Shown: positions 17,384 through 30,269 of the stretch, piece by piece
How positions within the stretch are numbered: position 1 is the stretch's first letter
Layout of the letters: each line of letters begins with the position of its first letter
Origin: Diaphorobacter sp. HDW4A
GTDB taxonomy: Bacteria > Pseudomonadota > Gammaproteobacteria > Burkholderiales > Burkholderiaceae_C
Assembly: GCF_011305995.1 (NCBI RefSeq)
Contig: NZ_CP049910.1
Span: 2,356,001-2,420,000 of the forward strand
Length of the DNA: 64,000 nt
Direction: 5' to 3'
Made by a program: the position numbers and the translations under genes
The notes under the pieces: model-generated
Database searches by the model: none
What the model saw: the letters and a program-made list of their open reading frames with translations, nothing else
What the model was told of the DNA's origin: nothing

Positions 17384-18463
17384 TCAATCCAGTAACTTGG
17401 CCGCCTTGCTCATGCCCGAAGGGCGGAAGTAGCCCAATACACTCGCCACACTGCGGTGCCCGGTCATCGCCATGGTGTCCGCAAGTGGCACGTTCTGCGC
17501 AGCGGCCTCGGTCACGAAGCCGCTGCGCAGCGAGTGGGCCGAGTAGCTGTCAGGCAACCCAGCCAGTTCGGCGCGGTACCTGACGATGTCGCGCACAGCC
17601 GATGGAGACAGGGGGCCACCCAAGGTTCCGCTTTTCCCCACCCTTCTAAAGATGCGTCCATCCACCACACCTGAGGCTCCTAGCCAGGCCTGAAGCGCCT
17701 CGGCAGCCTTGCCTTCGATGGGCTTCTGGTTTTCAGGGCGATCTGCGGCGGTCTGATTGGTCTTGGAGAACGCAAGCGTGAACACATATGCGTCGCCACC
17801 GGTGCGTCTGAGGTGCTTCATTTCGGCGCTGGTGACTTCCGAGCGTCTGCGGCCGCCCGTTGCAAAGGCAAAGAGCAGCAGGGCGCGGTCGCGCAAACCC
17901 TTCATGCTGGCGTCACAGGTCTCAAGCATGGCCATCAGCGGTTCGCGCGTGAGCGCATCTTTCTTCTGTGGCAGATCGCCTCGCTTGCCATACGTCCGGC
18001 GCGTTCGGGAGAGTAGTTCCCGCACCTTCGCGTCCTGACAGGGGTTGTCCAGCTGCCGCAGCTGATGCGCCTTGGATAGGACCGACACGCGATGCGTTAG
18101 TGTGCTGAGCGTCATCGGGCCGGTCTTGCCTTTGAATTTCAACTTCACCAGCAACGCATCGATCACGTCAGGCAGCTCGTGCTGCAACCCACCAGCCGTA
18201 GTGCGCTGAGCGTGGTCGACGATGAACTGCATCACCACGCTCGGCTGCAAGGGCAAGGCAATGGCCTGCCCAAACCGCAGTTGGTACCAAGCAGCCCAAT
18301 AGCGCAGCGCGCTGCGGTAACTTGCCAGCGTATTGGCCGATTCACCTTCGCGAAGCAGTTCTTCTACGGCCTGAGACGCGATTTCGGACAGCTTTTGAGG
18401 ATCCAGCAGTGGAGAAAGTCCCAAGCCCGAGGTTTGTAGTGTGAAAACTGGCAGAATTGTCAT
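17384..18463 (-). CDS. Tyrosine-type site-specific recombinase/integrase
   Basis: 359 residues from the chosen ATG at 18463; in-frame upstream starts exist (for example ATG at 18505), and none has a clear ribosome site. It has an N-terminal SAM-like core-binding domain (TLASYRSALRYWAAWY) and a catalytic domain with the expected tetrad: Arg in TGGRRRSEV, HSLRSGF, and GHRSVASVLGYFR, where the C-terminal Tyr is the nucleophile. It could belong to the nearby conjugative element, but a LysR gene and an RNase H gene lie between it and traI, and no att site is evident. It may instead be a resident chromosomal recombinase. Confidence 0.85.
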   Translation of the reverse strand: MTILPVFTLQTSGLGLSPLLDPQKLSEIASQAVEELLREGESANTLASYRSALRYWAAWYQLRFGQAIALPLQPSVVMQFIVDHAQRTTAGGLQHELPDVIDALLVKLKFKGKTGPMTLSTLTHRVSVLSKAHQLRQLDNPCQDAKVRELLSRTRRTYGKRGDLPQKKDALTREPLMAMLETCDASMKGLRDRALLLFAFATGGRRRSEVTSAEMKHLRRTGGDAYVFTLAFSKTNQTAADRPENQKPIEGKAAEALQAWLGASGVVDGRIFRRVGKSGTLGGPLSPSAVRDIVRYRAELAGLPDSYSAHSLRSGFVTEAAAQNVPLADTMAMTGHRSVASVLGYFRPSGMSKAAKLLD

Positions 18464-18664
18464 ATTTAATATGTGGTATGTATTGTTTATTACACAAATG
18501 GCCATGAGATGGCGATAATCTTCATTTATCGTTGGTAATTTAAGAGACGTACAGGTAAAAGGCAAATGAAACGTGCAAGAAGTGCGCGCGTAGCGCAGTT
18601 CAGCCACAAAGCACCGCCAAGAGGGGAAGCGGTGGGCCAAAAGTCGAAGGCAGGAGCCAGTTGC
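18464..18664. other. Gap between RNase H-like gene and recombinase
   Basis: 201 bp with a notably AT-rich stretch (about 18461-18545) just upstream of the recombinase start, suitable for a promoter or recombinase-binding DNA. No clear terminator or att repeat was recognised. Confidence 0.3.
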
Positions 18665-20667: not shown

Positions 20668-23367
20668 TCAAAGAGCATGTTCGTTCTCCAGTTTGAGCAC
20701 CGGATTGGCTGGCGGCACGGGTAAAACGAAGCGATCCGGATCAAGCAGAACCACGGCAGACAACCTGGCCACGGCGACGTTGCCGCGGCCTATCACCTGG
20801 TAGCGAAGGATGTTCACTTTGCCGCTGCCGGAGGCTGCGGCCATGCGGTGCCATCCGGCCTTGATGACTTCGCGCTGGACCTGCAGGCCCATCGCATCAG
20901 CATCTTCTTCAGGGCCGATGCTGTGTGCGTAGATCTTGAAGATCACGGGCGACACGAGTGCCATGCCTTCCTCCACAAAATGCACAGGAGCTCCTGTTTC
21001 GTTGTATTTGATCTCCCGGCTGGCCAAGCCTTGCTGAACCCACTGGATGAAGCCCAGAGCTGTTTCGCTGGGTTCCTTCTTCTTGGCGGTCGTTGCATGT
21101 GGCAACGCTGGAAGGCTCGGTGTGAGTACGACCGGTGTCGTGCCGCTGCTCGAGCCTGCGCCAGCTTCCTGACGGGTGAACAGGCGCTGTGCTTTGGCGG
21201 AGTTTGTGGGTTGCGCGCAGGCTTCCAAAGGTCGTTTGTTGGCGGCTTGGTTGGCTGGAGTGGCTCTGGAGATCGGTGTTGATGCAAGCAGCTGTTCTGC
21301 CAGTCCTGGAGGGATCTGCGAAGAGCCATCGCAAGGCATTGGCGCAGCTTCCTGGTGACTGGATGCAGCCACGTTTGCCGCAGTCTTGGCGGGGGTTGGT
21401 GCTGGGCGCTTTACTGGTGCAATCGATGGTTGTTTTGTGATATTCGATATCGATGATTCGTTACGTTTATATTTAACATATTGAGATTCATCCTCTGGAT
21501 CCAGCCATTCATCATCCGTCGCGTCAAAGCCATCAACCTCTTGCTCCAGAGGTGGAAACACCGGGTCATGGCGGTTGTCGCGGTCGTCGTCCCTGTTTTG
21601 TGACGATGTCGTTGACGGTGTTTGCACCTTGCGTTTCTCGGGAGATGACTTGATTGCGGCAGATTGCTGACCGCCCGGATTTGCGGCAGTTGTGGGTGCC
21701 AGTGTTGTCACAGGTCTGGCGGATGGCTGCTCTGGCCCAGGTTTGGGTTTGGGCTTGTTGAAGCTCGGTGCTGGCAGCCCTGCAGCTTTGGGTCCAGATG
21801 GTCTTGGAACAGGATGGGCACCTGAAGGCTGGCCAGATGTTCCAGCCGGTTGGCTGGCTGGTTTGGTTGGGATTGCTTCAGATTCCAATGGCGTTGCAGA
21901 CATTGCTTCTTGCGTTGCTTCAGCTCCTGTTCCCTGTTCTGCATCCTGATCACCGGGCGAATCTGCTTCACGCTTTTGCCGGACCACGATCTTTCCGGCC
22001 ATGGCCGGGGGATACCGGGACGCATCCTCGTAAAGTCGGTTCAGCGGAAACCGCAGCATCGACAAGTTGTGGCTGTACTGGTGCGCTGCTTCATCTGTCG
22101 GCGTGCCACCGCCCTCTTCCTCTTGCCCGCTGGCGCCCTGCCCCTCCCCCCTCTCCTGAACCTGGCCGATCACCTGAACCAGCCAGATGGCTTGCCCGGT
22201 GTGCGGGTTGGCCTGCAGGATTCCGTATTCCTGCCAGGTGTCGAACAGCCGGTCATTCTTGGCTTCGCCGGGAATTGACTCTTCAGGTGCGTGGGCCTTG
22301 ATCCATGCACGCGTTGTGTCGGCCAGCCGCTTGGCCACAAACCAGATGGAGCCGTCAAACACCCAGCCTGCAGCGCCGCTGCGATTGAGCGGCAACTCCG
22401 TTCCGGAAACGAGCATGGTCTTGACGGCTTGCATCAGCAGATCCACCAACGGGACGGCGTTGGCAGTCGCAAACCTCGCCTTGTTGCCCTTGAGCAGCGC
22501 ATTGCTGGTCGACGCCCGGTCTGCTCGCTGAATGATTTCGGCGAGCAAGCCGCTCTTGGTGCCGGAGAGATACTGCGTCAGCGCATCAAATGCGTGCGGG
22601 GTGCGCGACAGAAACGTGAGTGCGCTGCCCGGTGCTATCTGCGACAGCAGCGTGAGCGCCAATCGGCTGTGTGCCTGGTAGTCCCGTGCGACCTTGGGCT
22701 CGAATTCGACGCGGTATTCCAGTTGGGCGCGTCCATCGCCCACTTCAGCCAGTGAACCGGCAATGGGTTTCCAGCGCAGTGGCTCGCTCATCGTTCCGCC
22801 GCGCCAGAGGATGCGCAGATCGGTCATCGGTTTGGCGATGTCATGCAGCAGCGCGGCGAAGAACACCACATACGTCCATTGATCGCGCTCGGCATCGATC
22901 TGCTCGACCGGTGCGCTCGTCGGCAGAAAATGCCCGTTGCGCCAGGTCATCGCGGCAAGCACCATCTCCAGCGTGTGCGAAAGCAGCCCGCCCGCGTGGG
23001 CGTGATGGTGCGCCTCGGACGCAGGCATGAGCTGGACGTACTCGGCGTAGCGATGGATGGCAGGAAGCAAGTCCCGCTCGAATACGGGTTGGGCCAAGCG
23101 AGACTGGTGCCACATCTGGCGCACGGCCTTTTGCGCCTGAACCATCTGAATGAGATCTTCGGCCCGCAGCACACGCAGCCATCCTTGTTCCCGGCCAGCG
23201 ATCTGGATGGATGACTCGACCGGCGTGACTGATGATGGTACTTCAACCGAGGATGCGCCGGGATGAGGACGCCCGGATGAGTCGATGGACGATGATGAGC
23301 TGCCAGCCGCAGATGACGCAAGCTGCCACAGCGCTTTGACACGGCCGAGCCACGCAGGCATCTTCAC
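20668..23367 (-). CDS. traI: ICE relaxase TraI, MobH family
   Basis: 899-residue relaxase of the PFGI-1/SXT type (MobH, TraI_2). MobH relaxases nick oriT using an HD-like metal site rather than a tyrosine/HUH fold. Seen here: an N-terminal domain with REQGWLRVLRAEDLI, EAHHHAHAGGLLSHT (about 115-130) and the HD signature LLHDIAKPMTD near 172; a long low-complexity Pro/Gln/Ser-rich linker (about 420-770); and a C-terminal TraI_2_C domain (about 780-870; GFIQWVQQGLASREIKYN). It starts 11 bp after a hypothetical gene on the same strand. It is the only transfer gene pointing left. Confidence 0.9.
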   Translation of the reverse strand: MKMPAWLGRVKALWQLASSAAGSSSSSIDSSGRPHPGASSVEVPSSVTPVESSIQIAGREQGWLRVLRAEDLIQMVQAQKAVRQMWHQSRLAQPVFERDLLPAIHRYAEYVQLMPASEAHHHAHAGGLLSHTLEMVLAAMTWRNGHFLPTSAPVEQIDAERDQWTYVVFFAALLHDIAKPMTDLRILWRGGTMSEPLRWKPIAGSLAEVGDGRAQLEYRVEFEPKVARDYQAHSRLALTLLSQIAPGSALTFLSRTPHAFDALTQYLSGTKSGLLAEIIQRADRASTSNALLKGNKARFATANAVPLVDLLMQAVKTMLVSGTELPLNRSGAAGWVFDGSIWFVAKRLADTTRAWIKAHAPEESIPGEAKNDRLFDTWQEYGILQANPHTGQAIWLVQVIGQVQERGEGQGASGQEEEGGGTPTDEAAHQYSHNLSMLRFPLNRLYEDASRYPPAMAGKIVVRQKREADSPGDQDAEQGTGAEATQEAMSATPLESEAIPTKPASQPAGTSGQPSGAHPVPRPSGPKAAGLPAPSFNKPKPKPGPEQPSARPVTTLAPTTAANPGGQQSAAIKSSPEKRKVQTPSTTSSQNRDDDRDNRHDPVFPPLEQEVDGFDATDDEWLDPEDESQYVKYKRNESSISNITKQPSIAPVKRPAPTPAKTAANVAASSHQEAAPMPCDGSSQIPPGLAEQLLASTPISRATPANQAANKRPLEACAQPTNSAKAQRLFTRQEAGAGSSSGTTPVVLTPSLPALPHATTAKKKEPSETALGFIQWVQQGLASREIKYNETGAPVHFVEEGMALVSPVIFKIYAHSIGPEEDADAMGLQVQREVIKAGWHRMAAASGSGKVNILRYQVIGRGNVAVARLSAVVLLDPDRFVLPVPPANPVLKLENEHAL

Positions 23368-23378
23368 TGCAGCAGCGC

Positions 23379-23933
23379 TCAGTCTGCCGAGTGCAGAAGA
23401 AATGCCCGCAGCTCTTCTTGCTTGGTGCGTGGGAGCGTGCCCATGATCCAGATGTGAAGTCCCTCACGCGGATCGTCGGGATTACCGTCCTGCAGGAAAT
23501 TGAACCAGCTTTGCTCCAGCGGATTCCACAGGCGCGAGTGGGCGTCGGCAACCAGATCCTTGCCCCAGTGCGCGCGGTAGCGCACGAACTCAAGGCGCAT
23601 GATGTCTTCGACGATCTTGCATCGGGTCTGCTCTGCAGACTCGTTTGGAGGGGAGCCGATGCGCGTGCGGTGCCTGAGCAGGAGTTGCCGCATGCACACA
23701 TGCTGGTCTTCCTCCTCTTCGGCATACAGCTCCAGACCATCGTACTGGGCCAGCCAGGATGTCAGGCGCGGGACCCAGTCTCGGAGGCCCAGCGCATTCA
23801 GGTGCTCGATGATGATGTACAGCGCATGATTGCGGTCGAGCGCATCGCGTCCGAAATGCGGGAACTCGGGCGCTGGTTCATGTGCTTTGAACTGCGATTG
23901 CAGGCACGGTGGGTGGGAATCAGATGAGGACAT
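23379..23933 (-). CDS. Hypothetical protein upstream of traI
   Basis: 184-residue protein of unknown function, rich in charged and aromatic residues, with no signal peptide or membrane helix. It ends 11 bp before the traI start and is probably in the same transcript, so it may be a relaxosome or transfer accessory, which is inference from position only. An acidic run (LYAEEEEDQH) and paired W/F segments are the only distinguishing features. The ATG at 23933 lacks a clear ribosome site; a later start is possible. Confidence 0.65.
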   Translation of the reverse strand: MSSSDSHPPCLQSQFKAHEPAPEFPHFGRDALDRNHALYIIIEHLNALGLRDWVPRLTSWLAQYDGLELYAEEEEDQHVCMRQLLLRHRTRIGSPPNESAEQTRCKIVEDIMRLEFVRYRAHWGKDLVADAHSRLWNPLEQSWFNFLQDGNPDDPREGLHIWIMGTLPRTKQEELRAFLLHSAD

Positions 23934-24099
23934 GGTGCGGTCACTTTAGGGAAGTGACCACAGATGCCACAAGCGCAAACCTCAGGTGAACTGACGTTGG
24001 GTTCTCGCTTGCTTGGCGGCGCAGGTTCTGGTAGCTGCGAAGGGCCGTGAACTGACGCTTGCGGCCATGAGCCGTCGCTGATGGAAACAAGAAGCAGAC

Positions 24100-24168
24100 A
24101 TTCAACGTTTGACATGAAGGGGCGAGCTGCAAAGCCGCTTGGGCATTGGCTCAATAGAATGGTTAGAA
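24100..24168 (-). repeat. attC-like recombination site E
   Basis: Read on the minus strand, this 69-bp site opens with TTCTAAC and closes with GTTGAAT, which fits the integron core GTTRRRY. It begins 46 bp after the stop of the DUF559 gene, where a gene cassette should carry its attC. The internal palindrome is imperfect. Confidence 0.5.
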
Positions 24169-24214
24169 GCGCGCAAAGCCCGTCGCCCCACTTTCGACCA
24201 ATCCTTTAACACGC

Positions 24215-25165
24215 TTAAAGTTCGTAGAGCGAAAGCCCCATGGAAGAGCCAATGGCGTAGCAAACGTCTTGCCAGCGGACATGAGCCAAATCGCTACCAG
24301 CGAAAGACGTTTCGTGATTACCTAGACGTAAGAGCTTTCCGTTAGCAAGATACTTGAGCGTGTAAGCCCCAAGCCGCTCCTCGGCGAATTCCTCTGGCAA
24401 AACCGAACGTAACGGATGCACATAGACAGGATCGTCCGCCACCAAGAAAAACTCATCGAACAAATGGGAGAAGCTTTGCATATGAGAGCCGAGTTCTAAG
24501 GAATATAGCTCGTCTTCCATGAGATTTATCCTCACCTCACCCTTATCGTACTCCTTAACGTATCCGTCCAAGTGCTCTATTTTATGAGCATATTCAGGCG
24601 GGAGAAATACAAACGCAGTGATAAACGATTTTTCGTGAAGCCATTCGACAGCATAAGGCACAAACACCTCAAGGGATGCCCGCGAAAGGTCTTTAGTAGG
24701 ATACAGTTCCCTGTAGAGCTTCAGGGCCCTCGTTGATTCGCGAACAAAGAAGGGGTAGTCGATATACATCACGCGGTGTTTAGCAGGAGCGCGCTGCATA
24801 CGTTCTCTATAGATCTCCCCAACTTCCGCAACGCAGTCGGCAGGTGCTCTGTTGACTTCTCTCCCGGTGAAGCGCACCACTGTATATCCTGCGCGGGACA
24901 GGTAACGTTGACGCAAGGCATCTTTTTCAAGTTGCTCTTTCGTGGAGTGGTACTCGTGACCATCCAGTTCAACTATCAAGCGGACATCCTTCAACAAAAA
25001 ATCAACCCGATAGCGGCTGTGATTGTTGGCGTCGCCAAACCAGTGTTCACGTTCAATAGCATCAGCCAAGTCACCTAGCTCGCTAGAAAACGCCTTCTCT
25101 ATGTGTGACTGGCCTCTATCCCTATACCAACTAGGTGGTTTTTTCGGCTGACCGGGGTATTTCAT
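24215..25165 (-). CDS. DUF559-type PD-(D/E)XK nuclease-fold protein in a cassette-like unit
   Basis: 316-residue protein with a DUF559/very-short-patch-like nuclease domain at about residues 45-115: RVDFLLKDVRLIVELDGHEYH followed by a Lys/Arg-rich helix and YTVVRFTGREV, matching the D-ExD/E pattern and conserved R-F-T/W-xx-V. The C-terminal 190 residues are unfamiliar. Composition is more AT-rich than the transfer genes. It is flanked by attC-like sites at 25190 and 24168 and oriented away from the integron-integrase fragment at 26616, as an integron cassette gene would be. Roles in DNA repair or defence are plausible but unproven. Confidence 0.72.
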   Translation of the reverse strand: MKYPGQPKKPPSWYRDRGQSHIEKAFSSELGDLADAIEREHWFGDANNHSRYRVDFLLKDVRLIVELDGHEYHSTKEQLEKDALRQRYLSRAGYTVVRFTGREVNRAPADCVAEVGEIYRERMQRAPAKHRVMYIDYPFFVRESTRALKLYRELYPTKDLSRASLEVFVPYAVEWLHEKSFITAFVFLPPEYAHKIEHLDGYVKEYDKGEVRINLMEDELYSLELGSHMQSFSHLFDEFFLVADDPVYVHPLRSVLPEEFAEERLGAYTLKYLANGKLLRLGNHETSFAGSDLAHVRWQDVCYAIGSSMGLSLYEL

Positions 25166-25189
25166 TTGATCCTTTTAATCTGAGAGTAG

Positions 25190-25260
25190 ATCTAACGTAA
25201 TGTAGGCCGTACCAAGCCCCAGGCCATATCTGGCGCTTGCGGCCTAAATTGGTACTGTTG
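25190..25260 (-). repeat. attC-like recombination site A
   Basis: On the minus strand the site ends in GTTAGAT, a perfect GTTRRRY core (plus positions 25190-25196). Inside are stem arms TAGGCCG (25203-25209) and CGGCCTA (25240-25246), with nested CAAGC/GCTTG and CCAG/CTGG pairings and unpaired bases, as in folded attC sites. It is homologous to site B at 26472. Confidence 0.6.
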
Positions 25261-25420
25261 ATGACATTTGCGAGACATGGGCTCCAGGAAATAGAAGTTT
25301 TTTAACCATGCTAAACAACGAGTGACGGCTTTCGAGCTTCTAGCTGGATGGCGGCTCTGGGTCGCGTCCAGCCTGTCACTGTCGGCCATGAGCCGCCGCT
25401 GGTGGGATCAAGAAGCAGAC
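25261..25420 (-). other. Short cassette-like segment without a credible gene
   Basis: This 160-bp segment lies between attC-like sites A and D and would be an ORF-less cassette. A 65-codon reading frame (25192-25389, minus) overlaps site A and looks spurious. Its end nearest site D shares a stretch of about 45 bp with DNA next to site E (about 24058-24106). Confidence 0.4.
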
Positions 25421-25427
25421 ATTCAAC
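25373..25427. repeat. Dispersed repeat copy 2, adjacent to attC-like site D
   Basis: About 45 bp near-identical to about 24052-24106: both contain CGGCCATGAGCCG, then CGCTG, then AAGAAGCAGACATTCAAC. Both copies end exactly at the ATTCAAC core of an attC-like site, so they are the starts of two related downstream cassettes or part of an extended site. Confidence 0.6.
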
Positions 25428-25490
25428 GATCTAAGTTCAGCCGAGGCCGGAGGCGGTCGGCTTCGACGAAATTTTAGAAAATCGTAATTC
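25421..25490 (-). repeat. attC-like recombination site D
   Basis: The minus-strand terminal core is GTTGAAT (plus 25421-25427). The inner hairpin has AGCCGA (25439-25444) pairing with TCGGCT (25457-25462). It lies just downstream of the 25516-26007 gene. Confidence 0.5.
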
Positions 25491-25515
25491 CATCGATTTT
25501 TAAATAAATGCTCTA

Positions 25516-26007
25516 TTATTTGGCAACCTCAATAATTGCAGGTGCCTCGAATCGATTCCCTTTTGTGGAGATGGCGAATATTTTTGCATTTTTCTCATCG
25601 CCTAACCTGATGTCATCAATGAGCTGACGTTGGATTTTAAGAAGATCTGCGATCTTAAATATCGCTTGCTCCCCGGGGGATAGATTCTTTGCATCCTTTG
25701 GGCCTGAGTAAAAAGCATGTTTTGGCAAATCAAAATCCTGATACCCAACCTCAAGAATTTTTATGGGTGTATTTCCGATATTTGTTACCAGGATGGCTGA
25801 TTCAAGTAGCCCCCGCTCCTCTACTCCGCTAATCATCCGTAAATCCAATGGACTTAATGGGTGTTCATCCTGCGCCATCTTTAGTTCAATCTTTACTCTT
25901 TCCTCGACAGTGTCCTGTCTTATTTGGTATTGAACATAGCCGGTGGCAACTGAGGCTGCCAAAGCAAGAGCAGACATTCCAAGAGAGAGTGCTTGATATT
26001 TATCCAT
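25516..26007 (-). CDS. Hypothetical membrane-anchored protein, cassette-like
   Basis: 163-residue protein with one N-terminal membrane helix (about 7-25; LSLGMSALALAASVATGYV), followed by a soluble, mostly beta-looking domain (ILVTNIGNTPIKILEVGYQ). No family is recognised. It is AT-rich compared with neighbouring transfer genes and is bounded by attC-like sites C and D, with its orientation away from the intI fragment. The ATG at 26007 has no strong ribosome site visible, which is common for cassette genes. Confidence 0.6.
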   Translation of the reverse strand: MDKYQALSLGMSALALAASVATGYVQYQIRQDTVEERVKIELKMAQDEHPLSPLDLRMISGVEERGLLESAILVTNIGNTPIKILEVGYQDFDLPKHAFYSGPKDAKNLSPGEQAIFKIADLLKIQRQLIDDIRLGDEKNAKIFAISTKGNRFEAPAIIEVAK

Positions 26008-26038
26008 TATTCTTTTCGAAAATTACTGGACACAGATT

Positions 26039-26098
26039 TTCTAACGACTGAGGTAAGCCGATCGCCTTGGGTGGGTCGGCTTGACCGATGGGGTAGCT
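26039..26098 (-). repeat. attC-like recombination site C
   Basis: The minus-strand end is GTTAGAA (plus 26039-26045), close to GTTRRRY. The hairpin has AAGCCGA (26055-26061) with TCGGCTT (26076-26082). It fills the whole gap between two minus-strand genes, as a cassette attC should. Confidence 0.5.
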
Positions 26099-26100
26099 TA

Positions 26101-26451
26101 TTAACTTGAAAGTTGAGTCTGTAGTGGTTTGATCGGATTATCAATTCGCTTTACCTCTGCAGGAGGATCGATAAAACACGTTTCGGGCACTGCTATACCA
26201 TCTGTTCCAGCAAATAGGCGCAGGTCCTTCATGGTTATATCACCAAATGCATCGGTGTTGTATTCAAGCCCTAATTTCTCGAAGGCTGCCTTGATAGCAG
26301 TTTCGCAGTCAGATGCTAGAGCCCCATCCGCTTCTGGTGAAGGGTAATGACGCCTTATCCATAGACATATCCCTAGCGCATCATCGTGGCCCAGAGGGAT
26401 GAAAATCCACGGAACATTTACATCAATTGCTTGGTAAGATTCAGAGCTCAT
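26101..26451 (-). CDS. Hypothetical protein, cassette-like
   Basis: 116-residue protein from the ATG at 26451; an in-frame TTG at 26460 would add three residues. It has no signal peptide or membrane segment. Readable segments are VPWIFIPLGHDDALGICLW, then an acidic helical region (DCETAIKAAFEKLGLEY). No domain is recognised. It is the cassette closest to the intI fragment, with attC-like site C starting two bases after its stop codon and site B upstream. Confidence 0.6.
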   Translation of the reverse strand: MSSESYQAIDVNVPWIFIPLGHDDALGICLWIRRHYPSPEADGALASDCETAIKAAFEKLGLEYNTDAFGDITMKDLRLFAGTDGIAVPETCFIDPPAEVKRIDNPIKPLQTQLSS

Positions 26452-26471
26452 TTTTATCAATAAGATTGCGT

Positions 26472-26540
26472 TGCTAACGTAATGTAGACCGCACCAAGCC
26501 GCATGCCATCTCTCGCGCGTGCGGTCTAAATTGGTACGAA
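26472..26540 (-). repeat. attC-like recombination site B
   Basis: A perfect 10-bp stem, TAGACCGCAC (26485-26494) with GTGCGGTCTA (26519-26528), sits inside flanks shared with site A (TAACGTAATGTAG and TAAATTGGTAC). Arm differences from site A are compensatory (TAGACCG/CGGTCTA against TAGGCCG/CGGCCTA), so the structure rather than the sequence is conserved. The core is GTTAGCA, one base off consensus. Confidence 0.6.
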
Positions 26541-26585
26541 AAAACCGCGGGTAGGGTATTGCAGACTGGATTCTCTGCAGTTTTA

Positions 26586-26601
26586 CTGTATATAAACACA
26601 G
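26586..26601 (+). promoter_or_regulatory. LexA box upstream of the integron integrase fragment
   Basis: CTGTATATAAACACAG fits CTG-N10-CAG exactly and resembles the best SOS boxes. It lies 15 bp before the intI reading frame. SOS control of intI through LexA is established for many integrons, so both parts support each other. Confidence 0.75.
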
Positions 26602-26615
26602 TATTAAATTCAGCC

Positions 26616-26693
26616 ATAAAACCCGCCTCCCCTCCTGTGTTGCGCGCTACACGGTTGCTGGACCAAGTCCGTGAGCGAATTCGTTATAACTGA
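26616..26693 (+). pseudogene. intI: 5' fragment of an integron integrase gene (intI)
   Basis: In frame from 26616 (ATA where an ATG is expected; GTG at 26637 is also in frame) the DNA reads KPASPPVLRATRLLDQVRER then IRYN and a stop at 26691. This matches the N-terminus of IntI proteins (compare IntI1, MK..., LDQLRERIRYLHYS), and resemblance ends after the IRY. Only about 25 residues survive, so no active integrase is encoded. Its direction is opposite to the cassette-like genes to its left, the standard integron layout, and a LexA box precedes it. Confidence 0.65.
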
Positions 26694-27092
26694 GCTTGGA
26701 ATTGGCCCGTGCCTAGTGAACTTCATACATCATAGATGACAGCTTTGCGAGTCTTGTCTGCAGGACCGCTTGGGGTCGGGAGCTGACCGCTATGGCCGAA
26801 CATCGACATGCCTCATTCATCGTTCACATGAAACTGCCCCAGCGCCTTTGACCAGAATGCAGGCGCCCTCGCCTGCATTCTGGTCGTAGCCCGTAGAGCG
26901 CCCTTTCCCGTCCCCGTAGGCCATTTCCCGCTGCTCACCGGAAATTTGGAGGTGAGCAGCGGCCCTTTGAATAGGGCCCCTGACCTGTAGAGAGCCTTTG
27001 CCGGTACGACAGCCGCCCCGGCTGGAGCGCGCTTTTCCTTTTCGGTTTGAAGCGCCTTTGCTCACTGCCGATGCTCGGTTAGCACACCCCAA
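26694..27092. repeat. Hairpin-rich non-coding region before the transfer operon
   Basis: About 400 bp without a credible gene. It holds a perfect 16-bp inverted repeat with a 4-nt loop (GACCAGAATGCAGGCG 26850-26865; its complement 26870-26885), a 12-bp one with an 11-nt loop (26928-26939 and 26951-26962), and a 5-bp one (26961-26965 and 26974-26978). GCGCCTTTG-like motifs recur near 26842, 26898, 26959, 26992 and 27051. The single open frame here (minus, 26817-27092) is explained by these repeats. This is a candidate cis-acting region, such as oriT or a regulatory leader. Confidence 0.5.
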
Positions 27093-27198
27093 TCTTGATT
27101 GTCAAGCGTAAACCTCGTGGTGCGTGCCCCGAGGTTTCGTCGCGACATCTGCGTTGCCTTTCGCAAAACTGCCTTCAGTGATTTTGCAAAGGATGGCT
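27093..27198 (+). promoter_or_regulatory. Promoter/operator region of the conjugation operon
   Basis: Two inverted repeats precede pilL: CTTGA-TTG-TCAAG (27094-27106) and AAACCTCG with CGAGGTTT (27110-27117 and 27130-27137). They are plausible operators for the long transfer operon that begins at 27199. No -35/-10 pair is convincing. Confidence 0.4.
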
Positions 27199-27741
27199 AT
27201 GCGTTGGATCGGGTTTTCAATACTCACGTGGGCAGTGCTGGTGGCGCAGACCAACGCTTACGCGCAGCAGGTGGGTGATACCTACGACAAGGGCTCGCAG
27301 GTCCGCATCGGTCAGTACAGCACGCAGGCAAGCCGTCCTTCGGATAGCGAGATCGAGCCGCTTGACGTGTTTGTCGAGCTGAATTTTCCTCGGCAGTCGG
27401 TGGCTACGGTTGGCGATGCCGTGAACTACACGCTGATGCGCACGGGGTGGGTACTGGACAAGGCCCAGCTGGGATCGGACGCGGTCGCATTCCTTGCGTT
27501 GTCATTGCCTGAGTCGCAGCGGCGGATCGGCACGTATCGCGTGCGTGATGTGTTGCAGACGCTTGTGGGCAGTTCCTGGAACTGGAAGGAAGACCCCGTT
27601 CACCGGCAGTTGTGGTTTGCGCTGGTGGCACCGCCCTCTTCCGCTGTGTCCGTCGCGCCCGCCCCGACTGCCCCAATCGTCCAGCCCATTCGTCGCGCAC
27701 CCATCCCCTCGCGATTGACGCAACAGGTGGTGAAGCCATGA
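27199..27741 (+). CDS. pilL: PilL N-terminal-type ICE protein (PFGI-1 class)
   Basis: 180-residue exported protein matching the PilL family that opens the transfer region of PFGI-1-class ICEs. The start at 27199 is preceded by AAAGGA at 5 bp; an ATG at 27193 overlaps that site. There is a signal peptide (about 1-23, ending NAYAQQ) and a STN/secretin-like domain (DVFVELNFPRQSVATVGDAV, VRDVLQTLVGSSWNW). The C-terminal tail is Pro-rich. The stop overlaps the next start (ATGA at 27738), indicating translational coupling. Confidence 0.8.
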   Translation: MRWIGFSILTWAVLVAQTNAYAQQVGDTYDKGSQVRIGQYSTQASRPSDSEIEPLDVFVELNFPRQSVATVGDAVNYTLMRTGWVLDKAQLGSDAVAFLALSLPESQRRIGTYRVRDVLQTLVGSSWNWKEDPVHRQLWFALVAPPSSAVSVAPAPTAPIVQPIRRAPIPSRLTQQVVKP

Positions 27742-28973
27742 TGAATGCGCAAGAGCAGATGACTCCACCGTGGCCGGATGTGCAGCCTGTGAATGATGTG
27801 CCAGAGCCGATGCTGGATACGGTCTCCTTGTCTGAGCAGGTGCAGGCAGACCAGCGTCCCTTGGAGGATCTGCAGGAATTTGTACCGGAGTTCAAACGTA
27901 CGGCGCAACCGCAATTCACGGAAGAGAAGCCTCGCAAGTCGGAGCCAGGCATCTGGAGTTCGCTGTTCACGAAGTCGGCAAACACCAAGGCCCATGCAGG
28001 CCGCAAGCCTACGCATACTGCTCCGGCGCAGGCGGTGCGCGCGGAACCTCGGATGACGGTTGCCCGGCCTGTTCCGAACAAGTCCCGTCGTTTGGTTTTG
28101 CTGGTGGCGTTGCTGGGATGCGCCTGGGGTGGCTACGCGATCACGGCAGACAGGTTTCCGGGTATGGAGGGCCGAATCCGCACCGCGATCAGCTCCGCAG
28201 TGTCGACGGTCGTTGCCATGGCGAAGACGAAGCTGTCGGGCGATTCGTCAGGTCACCCTAACGCTGCATCAGTGGTTGCAGCCGTGACGGTACCCGAAGC
28301 CACCGCCGCATTGCCGGAGGAAGCCGGTGCGACCGTCGAGCCAGAATCTTCGGTCGATACTGGCTTGGCTGCACCACAGATCGCAGCGTCTGTACTAGGA
28401 CAACCAACCGCTGCCCCAGTGTCAGATGCTCCGGTGTCTGCAGCTTCTACTCCTGATCCGGTGACGACTCTGGGCGAGGAGGCAATCCCCGCCGCGCCCA
28501 TCGTGACCGAACCGTCGCCAAAGGCTTCCGTCATCGCCCCCGTGCCAGACACGCAGGACGTGCGCATCAAGACGTTGGAGGAGGAACTCCAGAGGCTCAA
28601 GGACAAGCTGTCTACTGCTCCGCAGGAGCAACCACAGCCTCATCCGCAGACGGTCAAGACGACGAAGTTCGCCTCTCACACGGCCAAGCGTGTTCTGCCT
28701 CGCACGCCAAAGCCGGAGTCCGAGCCACGTGAGGAAGTGATCGAGGAGGCCCCTCGATACAACGGACGCGTGTTGTCGGTCGACATGTGGGATGGCAAGC
28801 CGTCGGTGATGGTGATCACCGGGGATCCAACAGACAAGCGCACGGTCGTCCTGCAGCCGGGGGATTCGGTCAACGGCGTGACCCTTCGCGAGGCCAGTGT
28901 GAAGGAGCGCAGTGCCTCGTTCGACGTGGGCAACGGCAGGGTCATCAAGCTGACCGCCGGAGAGGAGCGCTGA
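27738..28973 (+). CDS. ICE membrane protein with C-terminal beta domain
   Basis: 411-residue protein coupled to pilL by a 4-bp overlap. It has a charged cytoplasmic N-terminus (about 1-115), one membrane helix (about 117-135; RLVLLVALLGCAWGGYA), a long Ala/Pro/Thr-rich periplasmic linker, a short coiled coil (IKTLEEELQRLKDKL), and a compact C-terminal domain (about 330-411; GRVLSVDMWDGKPSVMVITG) reminiscent of PilP/VirB10-adjacent beta domains. The exact function is unknown; its place implies a role in the pilus or transfer channel. Confidence 0.7.
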   Translation: MMNAQEQMTPPWPDVQPVNDVPEPMLDTVSLSEQVQADQRPLEDLQEFVPEFKRTAQPQFTEEKPRKSEPGIWSSLFTKSANTKAHAGRKPTHTAPAQAVRAEPRMTVARPVPNKSRRLVLLVALLGCAWGGYAITADRFPGMEGRIRTAISSAVSTVVAMAKTKLSGDSSGHPNAASVVAAVTVPEATAALPEEAGATVEPESSVDTGLAAPQIAASVLGQPTAAPVSDAPVSAASTPDPVTTLGEEAIPAAPIVTEPSPKASVIAPVPDTQDVRIKTLEEELQRLKDKLSTAPQEQPQPHPQTVKTTKFASHTAKRVLPRTPKPESEPREEVIEEAPRYNGRVLSVDMWDGKPSVMVITGDPTDKRTVVLQPGDSVNGVTLREASVKERSASFDVGNGRVIKLTAGEER

Positions 28974-29542
28974 TGAACCGCACTATTTCTACATGCCTCG
29001 TAGTGGTGGGCCTTCAATTTGGAGTGGCGTTCAGCGCGAATGCTCAAGGGGCGACTGCCACCGCCGCTACGGCGCAGCGCAAAGTGCAGGAGGCCGCCAG
29101 TGCCGTGGCTTCGCAGGACGGCTCTGCCACTCGGCTGAGTGCCACGGAGACGCTGAGCGCCACCATCTGGGGATTGAGTGTCGACGAGATGATCCGCGCC
29201 CGCGTGCTGCTGCAGGGGCCGCGCAAGTCGTTCTCGGTGGAGAACCTCTCGCCCATCGAGGCCTTGGGCATTCATGCCCGCGACGAGAGCGAGCGGCGGC
29301 GGTATGCGGAGATGTTCGCCCGCGCATTCCACGCGGATGTCGAACGTTCGCTCGCTTGGAATCGCGCCTTCACCGAGGCGATGGCGCGGCTGTATCCCGA
29401 TGAGCCGGTGGTGGACTTCAGCCGCGCGCCGAAGGTGGAGGCGTCCGTCGGGGCAGCCGACACGCTGAATGTGCCGCGCTCACGGATCGTTGAAAAGCCG
29501 CCAGCGGCCACGGGCACGCTGCCCCGGCGCGGTAGCCGATGA
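28973..29542 (+). CDS. ICE protein, PFL_4693 family (TIGR03759)
   Basis: 189-residue exported protein with a signal peptide (about 1-25). It shows the family core: WGLSVDEMIRARVLLQGPRKSF, PIEALGIHARDESERRRYAE, then an E-rich helix and ARLYPDEP. It starts inside the stop of the previous gene (TGATG at 28971). It is found in the same order in PFGI-1-like elements and its role in conjugation is not defined; the periplasmic location comes from the signal peptide. Confidence 0.82.
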   Translation: MNRTISTCLVVVGLQFGVAFSANAQGATATAATAQRKVQEAASAVASQDGSATRLSATETLSATIWGLSVDEMIRARVLLQGPRKSFSVENLSPIEALGIHARDESERRRYAEMFARAFHADVERSLAWNRAFTEAMARLYPDEPVVDFSRAPKVEASVGAADTLNVPRSRIVEKPPAATGTLPRRGSR

Positions 29543-29555
29543 GGAGCACACACGC

Positions 29556-30269
29556 ATGATGCAACGCCGAATGCTCCTGGCCTCTTCGGCCCTGATGGGT
29601 CTGGCAGGCGCCGCTGGATCGGGCCTCGCCATGGCGATGGACAGTCCATGGTGGCCCTACTCCGCGGATGCGGCGCGCCGCATTGAGCCGGTTATCACCG
29701 ACAAGGTGATCCGCCGAAACGCGGAGCCTCAGGTTCTGGCTAAGGCTGCGCCGCCCAAGGCCTATGACGAAGCGGCTCGGGCGAGCAATGTCGACTCCTG
29801 GGTGCTCTATGGCATTGCGCTGCAGGAGTCCAACATGAAGTTGGGCGAGCACACGCTGCCCTATCCGTGGACGCTGTGCGTCGCGGGATCGGCCAAGCGC
29901 TATGGCGGGTATGAACAGACCGTGCAGGCATTGCGCAGCTTCGTGAACGAGCGCGGGATCCGCAATGTCGATTGCGGCGTGATGCAGGTGAACTGGCGTT
30001 GGCACAACGACAAGCTGCAGAGCTTTGAACGTGCGCTGCAGCCGCTGGCCAATCTGGCGGTGGGCGCGCAGATCCTGCGTGAGCACTACGAGCGATCGGG
30101 CTCGTGGATGCGTGCAGCCGCGCTGTATCACACGGGCTCGGATGCGGATGGTGCCACCGTGGCGCGCGGTCAGCGTTATGCGAGCGGCGTGTTCCGGCGA
30201 TTGGGGCGCATGGGTCTCAAGGTGGACGAGCTTCAGGCGTCGACGGGCTGGAGGCGGTATGCGGTTTAG
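29556..30269 (+). CDS. Transfer-associated lytic transglycosylase (SLT domain)
   Basis: 237-residue protein from the ATG at 29556, preceded by GAGGAG. It has an N-terminal signal (about 1-28), then a goose-lysozyme-like SLT domain: catalytic glutamate in WVLYGIALQESNMKLGEH (about residue 91), DCGVMQVNWRWH and ALYHTGSD. It would open the peptidoglycan locally for assembly of the conjugation channel, the job of VirB1-like enzymes. Its stop overlaps the next gene's start region (30259). Confidence 0.85.
   Translation: MMQRRMLLASSALMGLAGAAGSGLAMAMDSPWWPYSADAARRIEPVITDKVIRRNAEPQVLAKAAPPKAYDEAARASNVDSWVLYGIALQESNMKLGEHTLPYPWTLCVAGSAKRYGGYEQTVQALRSFVNERGIRNVDCGVMQVNWRWHNDKLQSFERALQPLANLAVGAQILREHYERSGSWMRAAALYHTGSDADGATVARGQRYASGVFRRLGRMGLKVDELQASTGWRRYAV

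Follow-up and report, generated by a model that had tools for sequence, protein, structure and literature searches.

Tandem integron units with internally deleted integrase genes and defined ends in the cargo slot of a conjugative element

Two integron units lie in tandem at 25383–26778 (unit 1) and 24062–25364 (unit 2) of the 64-kb window, the whole stretch of DNA analysed here (Table 1), and an integrase gene stub behind a LexA-type box forms the proximal end of unit 1. Each unit consists, in order, of an end sequence named D, cassettes with attC, attI, a remnant of the integrase gene intI and an end sequence named T. Functional intI is missing from both, as each copy is internally deleted. 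In unit 1, the 3′ end of the gene follows the stub and ends at 26778. The original prediction had described a fossil promoter with a truncated integrase. The truncated IntI and its box stand, but the gene has been deleted internally with its 3′ end kept and is part of a unit. With that 3′ end, attI and cassettes, a tandem neighbor and a deletion that unit 2 shares with other genomes, the locus is more than a one-off fossil promoter.

We somewhat favor the reading that the two units are non-autonomous mini-integrons that have spread as blocks and whose cassettes are exchanged at attI in trans. It builds on what is read directly from the compared sequences, namely the anatomy, the deletion joint shared by one type of unit (type A), the non-matching flanks and cassettes of that type, and the conserved T end. 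From these we infer block movement through the D and T ends and cassette exchange in trans after integrase loss.

The palindrome CTGTATATAAACACAG is the sole zero-mismatch match to CTGTNTNNNNNNACAG in the window, and starts 30 nt upstream of the intI start position, where unit 1 has ATA at the start-codon position of relatives. The short frame behind it had been proposed to be the N-terminus of IntI. It indeed matches the start of a full-length IntI encoded on contig C2 of this genome, whose N-terminus includes MKPASPPVLRATRLLDQVRERISY, and the match is specific to IntI proteins. Moreover, 26474–26689 is collinear with the stretch from attI to the intI start in related integrons, with 86% (G015), 84% (C2) and 81% (G026) identity over 216–220 nt, and full integrases stand at the equivalent point in related integrons. 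Just about 25 codons of the frame are left, which could suggest another tyrosine recombinase or a chance match. Because of this identity, a chance match is excluded, and an origin from another recombinase is likewise rejected by 216 nt of collinearity with both attI and intI starts, some followed by full IntI, making such an origin of the stub extremely improbable.

The box was surveyed upstream of the best 80 of 566 confirmed relatives of the C2 IntI (mostly Comamonadaceae and other Burkholderiales, fetched by name), 75 of which had enough upstream DNA, 5 being excluded. Both LexA half-sites are perfect within about 60 nt of the intI start in 46 of the 75, and match at 7 or more of 8 bases in 63, while a perfect pair occurs in 0.07% of shuffled upstream DNA. 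The predicted LexA box is confirmed. The closest named relatives are Comamonadaceae-type integrons and not Xanthomonadales, the other group proposed for comparison. Among deleted copies, the half-site score is perfect in 4 of 15 (unit 1 of the window, two G331 copies and G825), where the automatic choice of position may have missed the true place in G830, G796, G812 and G366. No sigma-70-type (Pc) promoter match was found in 26400–26800.

The surroundings are those of a MobH-type integrative and conjugative element with integrase, relaxase, coupling and transfer genes, a TraD-like gene among them. Genes of this element lie on both sides of the units, bearing out the earlier placement inside a conjugative element. 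The gap between the divergent traI and pilL operons measures 3,259 bases in the window, 2,717 of them taken up by the integron units, while in G113 (L120) the aligned parts of both operons are 648 bases apart. The integron units thus occupy a cargo slot between the two operons. Incidentally, the same slot in the Comamonas aquatica plasmid p1_SCLZS63 (L112 4508–9532) contains a nucleoside phosphorylase, DUF4231 and response-regulator cluster.

Table 1 Features of the two tandem units and of the surrounding element (positions in the window).
Feature	Position	Strand	Remark
Tyrosine integrase, probably of the conjugative element	17384..18640	-	
TraI/MobH-type relaxase	20668..23367	-	TraI domains
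Conserved gene beside traI, left slot border	23379..23933	-	
D end, unit 2; left limit of integron insertion	24062..24107	-	
Putative attC of cassette 3 (weak)	24101..24170	-	position and core motif only
Cassette 3 ORF, 316 aa	24215..25165	-	DUF559 / MTES_1575 restriction-endonuclease-like
attI, unit 2	25192..25255	+	88% identical repeat of 64-nt attI
intI remnant, unit 2, up to type A joint	25256..25319	+	
T end, unit 2 (intI 3′ end and tail)	25320..25364	+	
18-nt spacer between tandem units	25365..25382	.	17/18 identical to solo arm-pair spacer, G004
D end, unit 1 (distal)	25383..25428	-	starts at core of last attC
Cassette 2 attC-like site	25424..25480	-	at least 33 matching places in 26/399 genomes
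Cassette 2 ORF, 163 aa	25516..26007	-	no family above cut-off
Cassette 1 attC-like site	26040..26096	-	at least 24 matching places in 14/399 genomes
Cassette 1 ORF, 119 aa	26101..26460	-	no family above cut-off
attI, unit 1	26474..26537	+	same motif ~140 nt upstream of intI in many relatives
LexA-type palindrome, former intI promoter	26586..26601	+	same -30 offset in L015 and L017
intI 5′ remnant, unit 1	26616..26693	+	translation IKPASPPVLRATRLLDQVRERIRYN*; 25 codons
Deletion joint region of unit 1 intI (type W)	26694..26735	+	similar in G132, G116; less in G003
T end, unit 1 (intI 3′ end and tail)	26736..26778	+	28/43 to T sequence
PilL-like gene, right slot border	27193..27741	+	

The attI sites were assigned because their motif recurs at a similar place before intI in many relatives, and in both units the motif, starting at 26474 and 25192, adjoins the intI remnant. 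The copy at 25192 was also considered as a cassette attC or as a delta-attI cassette, both of which are rejected by its position upstream of intI and the adjacent intI 3′ end. Two attC-like sites were recognized by homology, and their places counted in other genomes, some of which fall in clusters, are lower bounds, as two candidates per genome were scored at first look. A simple structural attC scan missed both of these sites. The putative attC of cassette 3 was recovered neither by homology nor by the structural scan, and an Rfam search of 22000–30000 gave no match.

Cassette 3 is the only one of the three cassettes in the window that belongs to a known family, and defence-system models match the cassettes only weakly. 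From comparison of their sequences, cassettes 2 and 3 appear to be shared well beyond Comamonadaceae-type integrons. A 68% DNA relative of the cassette 3 gene (24237–25165) is found on an Aliivibrio wodanis plasmid, and a 66% relative of the cassette 2 gene (25517–25921) on an Acinetobacter wuhouensis plasmid; cassette 2 with its attC has a 70% match in G273.

Deletion joints were compared using coordinates measured on the G015 unit. The type A joint, 362/1156, with AANGAG joined to TGACGG, occurs in five genomes of another genus (G331, G828, G797, G796 and G830). Unit 2 of the window is also type A, bringing the joint to six genomes of two genera. Alignments of unit 2 across the joint show identity in 87 of 102 columns with G797 and in 90 of 109 with G796, and little microhomology is visible by eye. 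Joint 349/1153 is common to a second G331 copy and G787, and joint 337/1135 to G802 and G825. Other joints are found in G819, G812, G366, G336, G139, G803 and a third G331 copy. Two or more loci with intI or a remnant occur in each of G331, G269, G237 and G342.

Outside the shared parts, type A units do not resemble one another. The five units of the other genus match at E 1e-8 only in the platform, plus the D end for one pair, and unit 2 of the window matches them only in attI, the intI remnant, T and D. Neither the three cassette proteins nor the flanks of the window match the type A loci, and the 12-base stretches that flank attI towards the cassettes differ across the 11 copies listed, the attI edge being eroded in G787 and G819. 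Weighing against movement of the units, a 530-nt flank piece is common to two type C copies, on opposite sides. The plasmid collection gave no match for one type A platform (L226:2300–2700) or for 26690–27760 of the window.

These comparisons bear on plain decay, under which an integron, sedentary or carried by an element, lost its integrase like many others, similar deletions elsewhere arose independently, and the remnants are fossils. Inactivation of intI is common, affecting 46% of IntI proteins (PMC3108266) and seen also in Xanthomonas (PMC12444791). Several distinct deletions exist, many copies have eroded LexA boxes and starts, and attI has fared no better than the first half of the dead gene. 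On the other hand, one joint with little microhomology recurs in six genomes of two genera, yet cassettes and flanks differ, and the T end outlasts the gene. We regard plain decay as unlikely.

For unit 1, the joint is named type W. The G132 alignment runs through it for 146 columns at 73% with 11 gap columns. In global identity to the window, the type W tails score 0.81 (G116), 0.73 (G132) and 0.71 (G003), and unrelated tails 0.72–0.77, weakening the grouping of G132 and G003 by tail, as they are no closer than unrelated ones. Judged from these alignments, G116 probably shares a common descent with unit 1, and G132 and G003 may do so.

Conservation within deleted units was measured in several ways. 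Aligned among themselves, the five type A platforms of the other genus (10 pairs, gaps ignored) have an identity of 0.90 in the T end, 0.77 in the intI remnant (0.80 in its first half and 0.73 in its second), 0.79 in attI and 0.76 in the spacer that contains the promoter. When unit 2 is included, a gapped block comparison gives 0.90 for T, 0.64–0.70 for inner blocks, which are partly out of register, and 0.53 outside; the contrast between T and the dead gene is smaller in the five-platform alignment, which has none for attI. An ungapped count gives 0.72 for T versus 0.76 for the remnant in type A, and 0.69 for T over 11 copies. These T values are low because small indels shift some copies out of register, and gapped counts reverse the order. 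For attI, the comparison with the first half of the dead gene stands at 0.79 versus 0.80 in type A, and the 11 copies give 0.78 versus 0.74, so that extra conservation of attI is not borne out. By these alignments, the T end is kept better than the dead intI, and attI not clearly so.

D is a 46-nt sequence that starts at the last attC core and ends in GGCTCATGGCCG, and T is of similar length, extending from the intI stop to GGCTCAGGGTCG. The DNA beyond D differs in nine places compared, so D marks the distal end of the array, and was rejected as part of a cassette. Where both ends were found, the order is D, attI and T, with the ends reading outward. At the thresholds used, only T was found in G015 (array side cut by contig start), G366, G237 C18, G132 and G269, and only D in some other loci; no D, T or attI match was found in 600,000 shuffled bases at the same thresholds. 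In 17 units with both ends, including G811 that has no recognizable attI, D and T share 7–12 of their outer 15 positions, 9.9 on average, versus a mean of 3.9 and a maximum of 10 in 731 control comparisons. The terminal repeats of about 45 nt at the two extremities are thus imperfect inverted repeats. D and T also bound intact units. Both ends are found in C2, where intI is intact, and in L102, where intI lies in two frames, with D at 33/46. Extra D-like matches occur outside units in L102 and L192, which weighs against the mobile-unit reading.

In G331, an insertion sequence with a presumably IS30-like transposase starts exactly at the T end (L190 7543 onward). This DNA was considered and rejected as part of the unit, as the insertion sequence is present at unrelated sites.

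Several observations at the ends weigh against mobile units. There is no consistent target duplication, exact repeats of at least 5 nt flanking 4 of 18 placements, and searches for an empty site at the G819 unit and at one of the G331 units found none. Only the G787 placement of the 18 has a long flanking repeat (11 nt). Its spacers outside both ends (L229 5158–5191 and 4146–4194) share GGGACAGTCGC, which resembles a crossover core or a duplication. The end arms also resemble dispersed palindromic repeats of the carrier genomes, so the arms may be captured flanks rather than the units' own ends.

It is possible, though we hold it doubtful, that the integrons lie between two copies of a dispersed palindromic repeat of which D and T are the halves, and were moved by homologous recombination or by the repeat's own mover, as in MITE-flanked integrons. 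Like arms face each other across 17–19 nt where the two units of the window meet, at either end of the G787 unit and of the G797 unit, and at a solo site in G004, and repeats with like arms lie beside the G819 unit, which together suggest that the ends may be halves of a dispersed palindrome. However, a host-genome search with T, spacer and D gave, beyond known units, one 23-nt partial match at E below 1. Moreover, an excess of arm pairs at 17–19 nt is not clear in the DNA fetched, and full flanking repeats are not evident at most units.

Two of these sites have further features. The repeat that abuts the G819 unit (L230 5837–5982) is about 135 nt long, has D-like arms, ends in an arm like GGCCAGAAGCAGTC, and recurs at many places in sister genomes. 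The solo pair of end-like arms in G004 (L177 5523–5570) has an 18-nt spacer nearly identical to that of the tandem junction (Table 1), and is possibly an unoccupied site.

If the units are mini-integrons served in trans, an integrase has to come from elsewhere. Contig C2 (242,290 bases) of the same genome encodes an intact IntI of 335 residues with its own attI. It has Phage_integrase and Phage_int_SAM_4 domains, and is 68.7% identical to a class 3 integrase and 61.7% to a class 1 integrase of the plasmid collection. When it was used as a query in 30 genomes, an IntI-like stop-free frame aligned over at least 260 residues in six (G000, G015, G008, G342, G175 and G825); with internal stops counted, long matches were also found in G336, G269, G116 and G237. 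Intact IntI is absent in 13 carriers of deleted units in this search (G331, G828, G797, G796, G830, G787, G819, G812, G802, G803, G827, G132 and G003, with G003 and G812 being incomplete drafts), which gave only remnants, nothing, or a match of 57–58 residues that we take to be XerC/XerD. The host of the window has two intact IntI, both on C2. Integrase service in trans is possible in this host. In the other carriers, present-day supply is unproven because 13 of them have no resident intact IntI, which weighs against cassette exchange in trans.

The second IntI of C2 lies at 145903–146874 (L016 15904–16875), placing a native and a clinical-type integron on one contig. At least 5,000 plasmid records match the surrounding 1,501 bases, with 99% identity or higher in 4,998, and the top plasmid matches are annotated as intI1 with resistance cassettes.

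Integrons are held to move cassettes via their own integrase, and are themselves carried by transposons or plasmids. For the mini-integrons favored here, the course of events would be as follows. First, an internal deletion would have removed intI in an ancestor, with both extremities retained. Second, the shortened unit would have spread as a block via its ends to new places, including the cargo slot of the conjugative element in the window. Third, an integrase from elsewhere would have brought in or swapped cassettes at attI, either after the deletion or at about the same time. The block may have moved by site-specific recombination, through a transposase acting in trans or by recombination between repeats. 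More tentatively, the units may represent a family of mini-integrons in Comamonadaceae-type bacteria with inverted-repeat ends of their own, block spread between genera and into conjugative elements, and continuing cassette exchange in trans, an integron counterpart of MITEs.

If this is true, integrase-less units with ends and attI would explain cassettes in genomes without any IntI, and also arrays adjoining recurrent, similar intI stubs. A dead integrase stub, a common annotation nuisance, would then be the marker of a defined two-ended unit. Among the titles and abstract openings searched, none describes integrons that have lost intI through a common deletion while carrying different cassettes between conserved inverted ends.

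Decay of intI, CALIN and MITE-flanked integrons are already known from the sources cited below. In the Xanthomonas ilvD integrons, intI was lost by deletion or frameshift and cassettes remain (PMC12444791), as in the window. There, however, the same intI lesion usually goes with identical arrays downstream of ilvD (an earlier study, via PMC12444791), whereas here the copies that share a deletion are found at different sites with different cassettes, and retain the intI 3′ end. CALIN (PMC9024848) likewise have attC-like cassettes with no functional integrase nearby, and with two attC-like sites by homology the locus fits CALIN by content (at least two attC, no intI). Unlike CALIN as described there, the units of the window still have attI and defined ends, as well as the 3′ end of intI and pieces of the gene and its promoter.

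At first sight, the attI of unit 2 might look like a delta-attI gene cassette (PMC12901181), where an attI fragment lies within a cassette array, but this inner attI is that of the other tandem unit, which has an intI remnant and a T end of its own. As in SOS-controlled intI (PMC3108266), a LexA-type site precedes the gene; in the window the box outlives the gene, and 11 of 15 deleted copies show no perfect box. MITE-like elements flank class 1 integrons (Gillings 2009, cited in PMC8618304), and a Tn402-like integron has a 439-bp MITE at both ends (PMC3934969). These, as far as the cited texts describe them, resemble the units of the window in having inverted-repeat bounds that may allow movement as a block, but the ends in the window are only about 45 nt long, lie directly at the intI stop and at the core of the last attC, and enclose a unit whose integrase is deleted.
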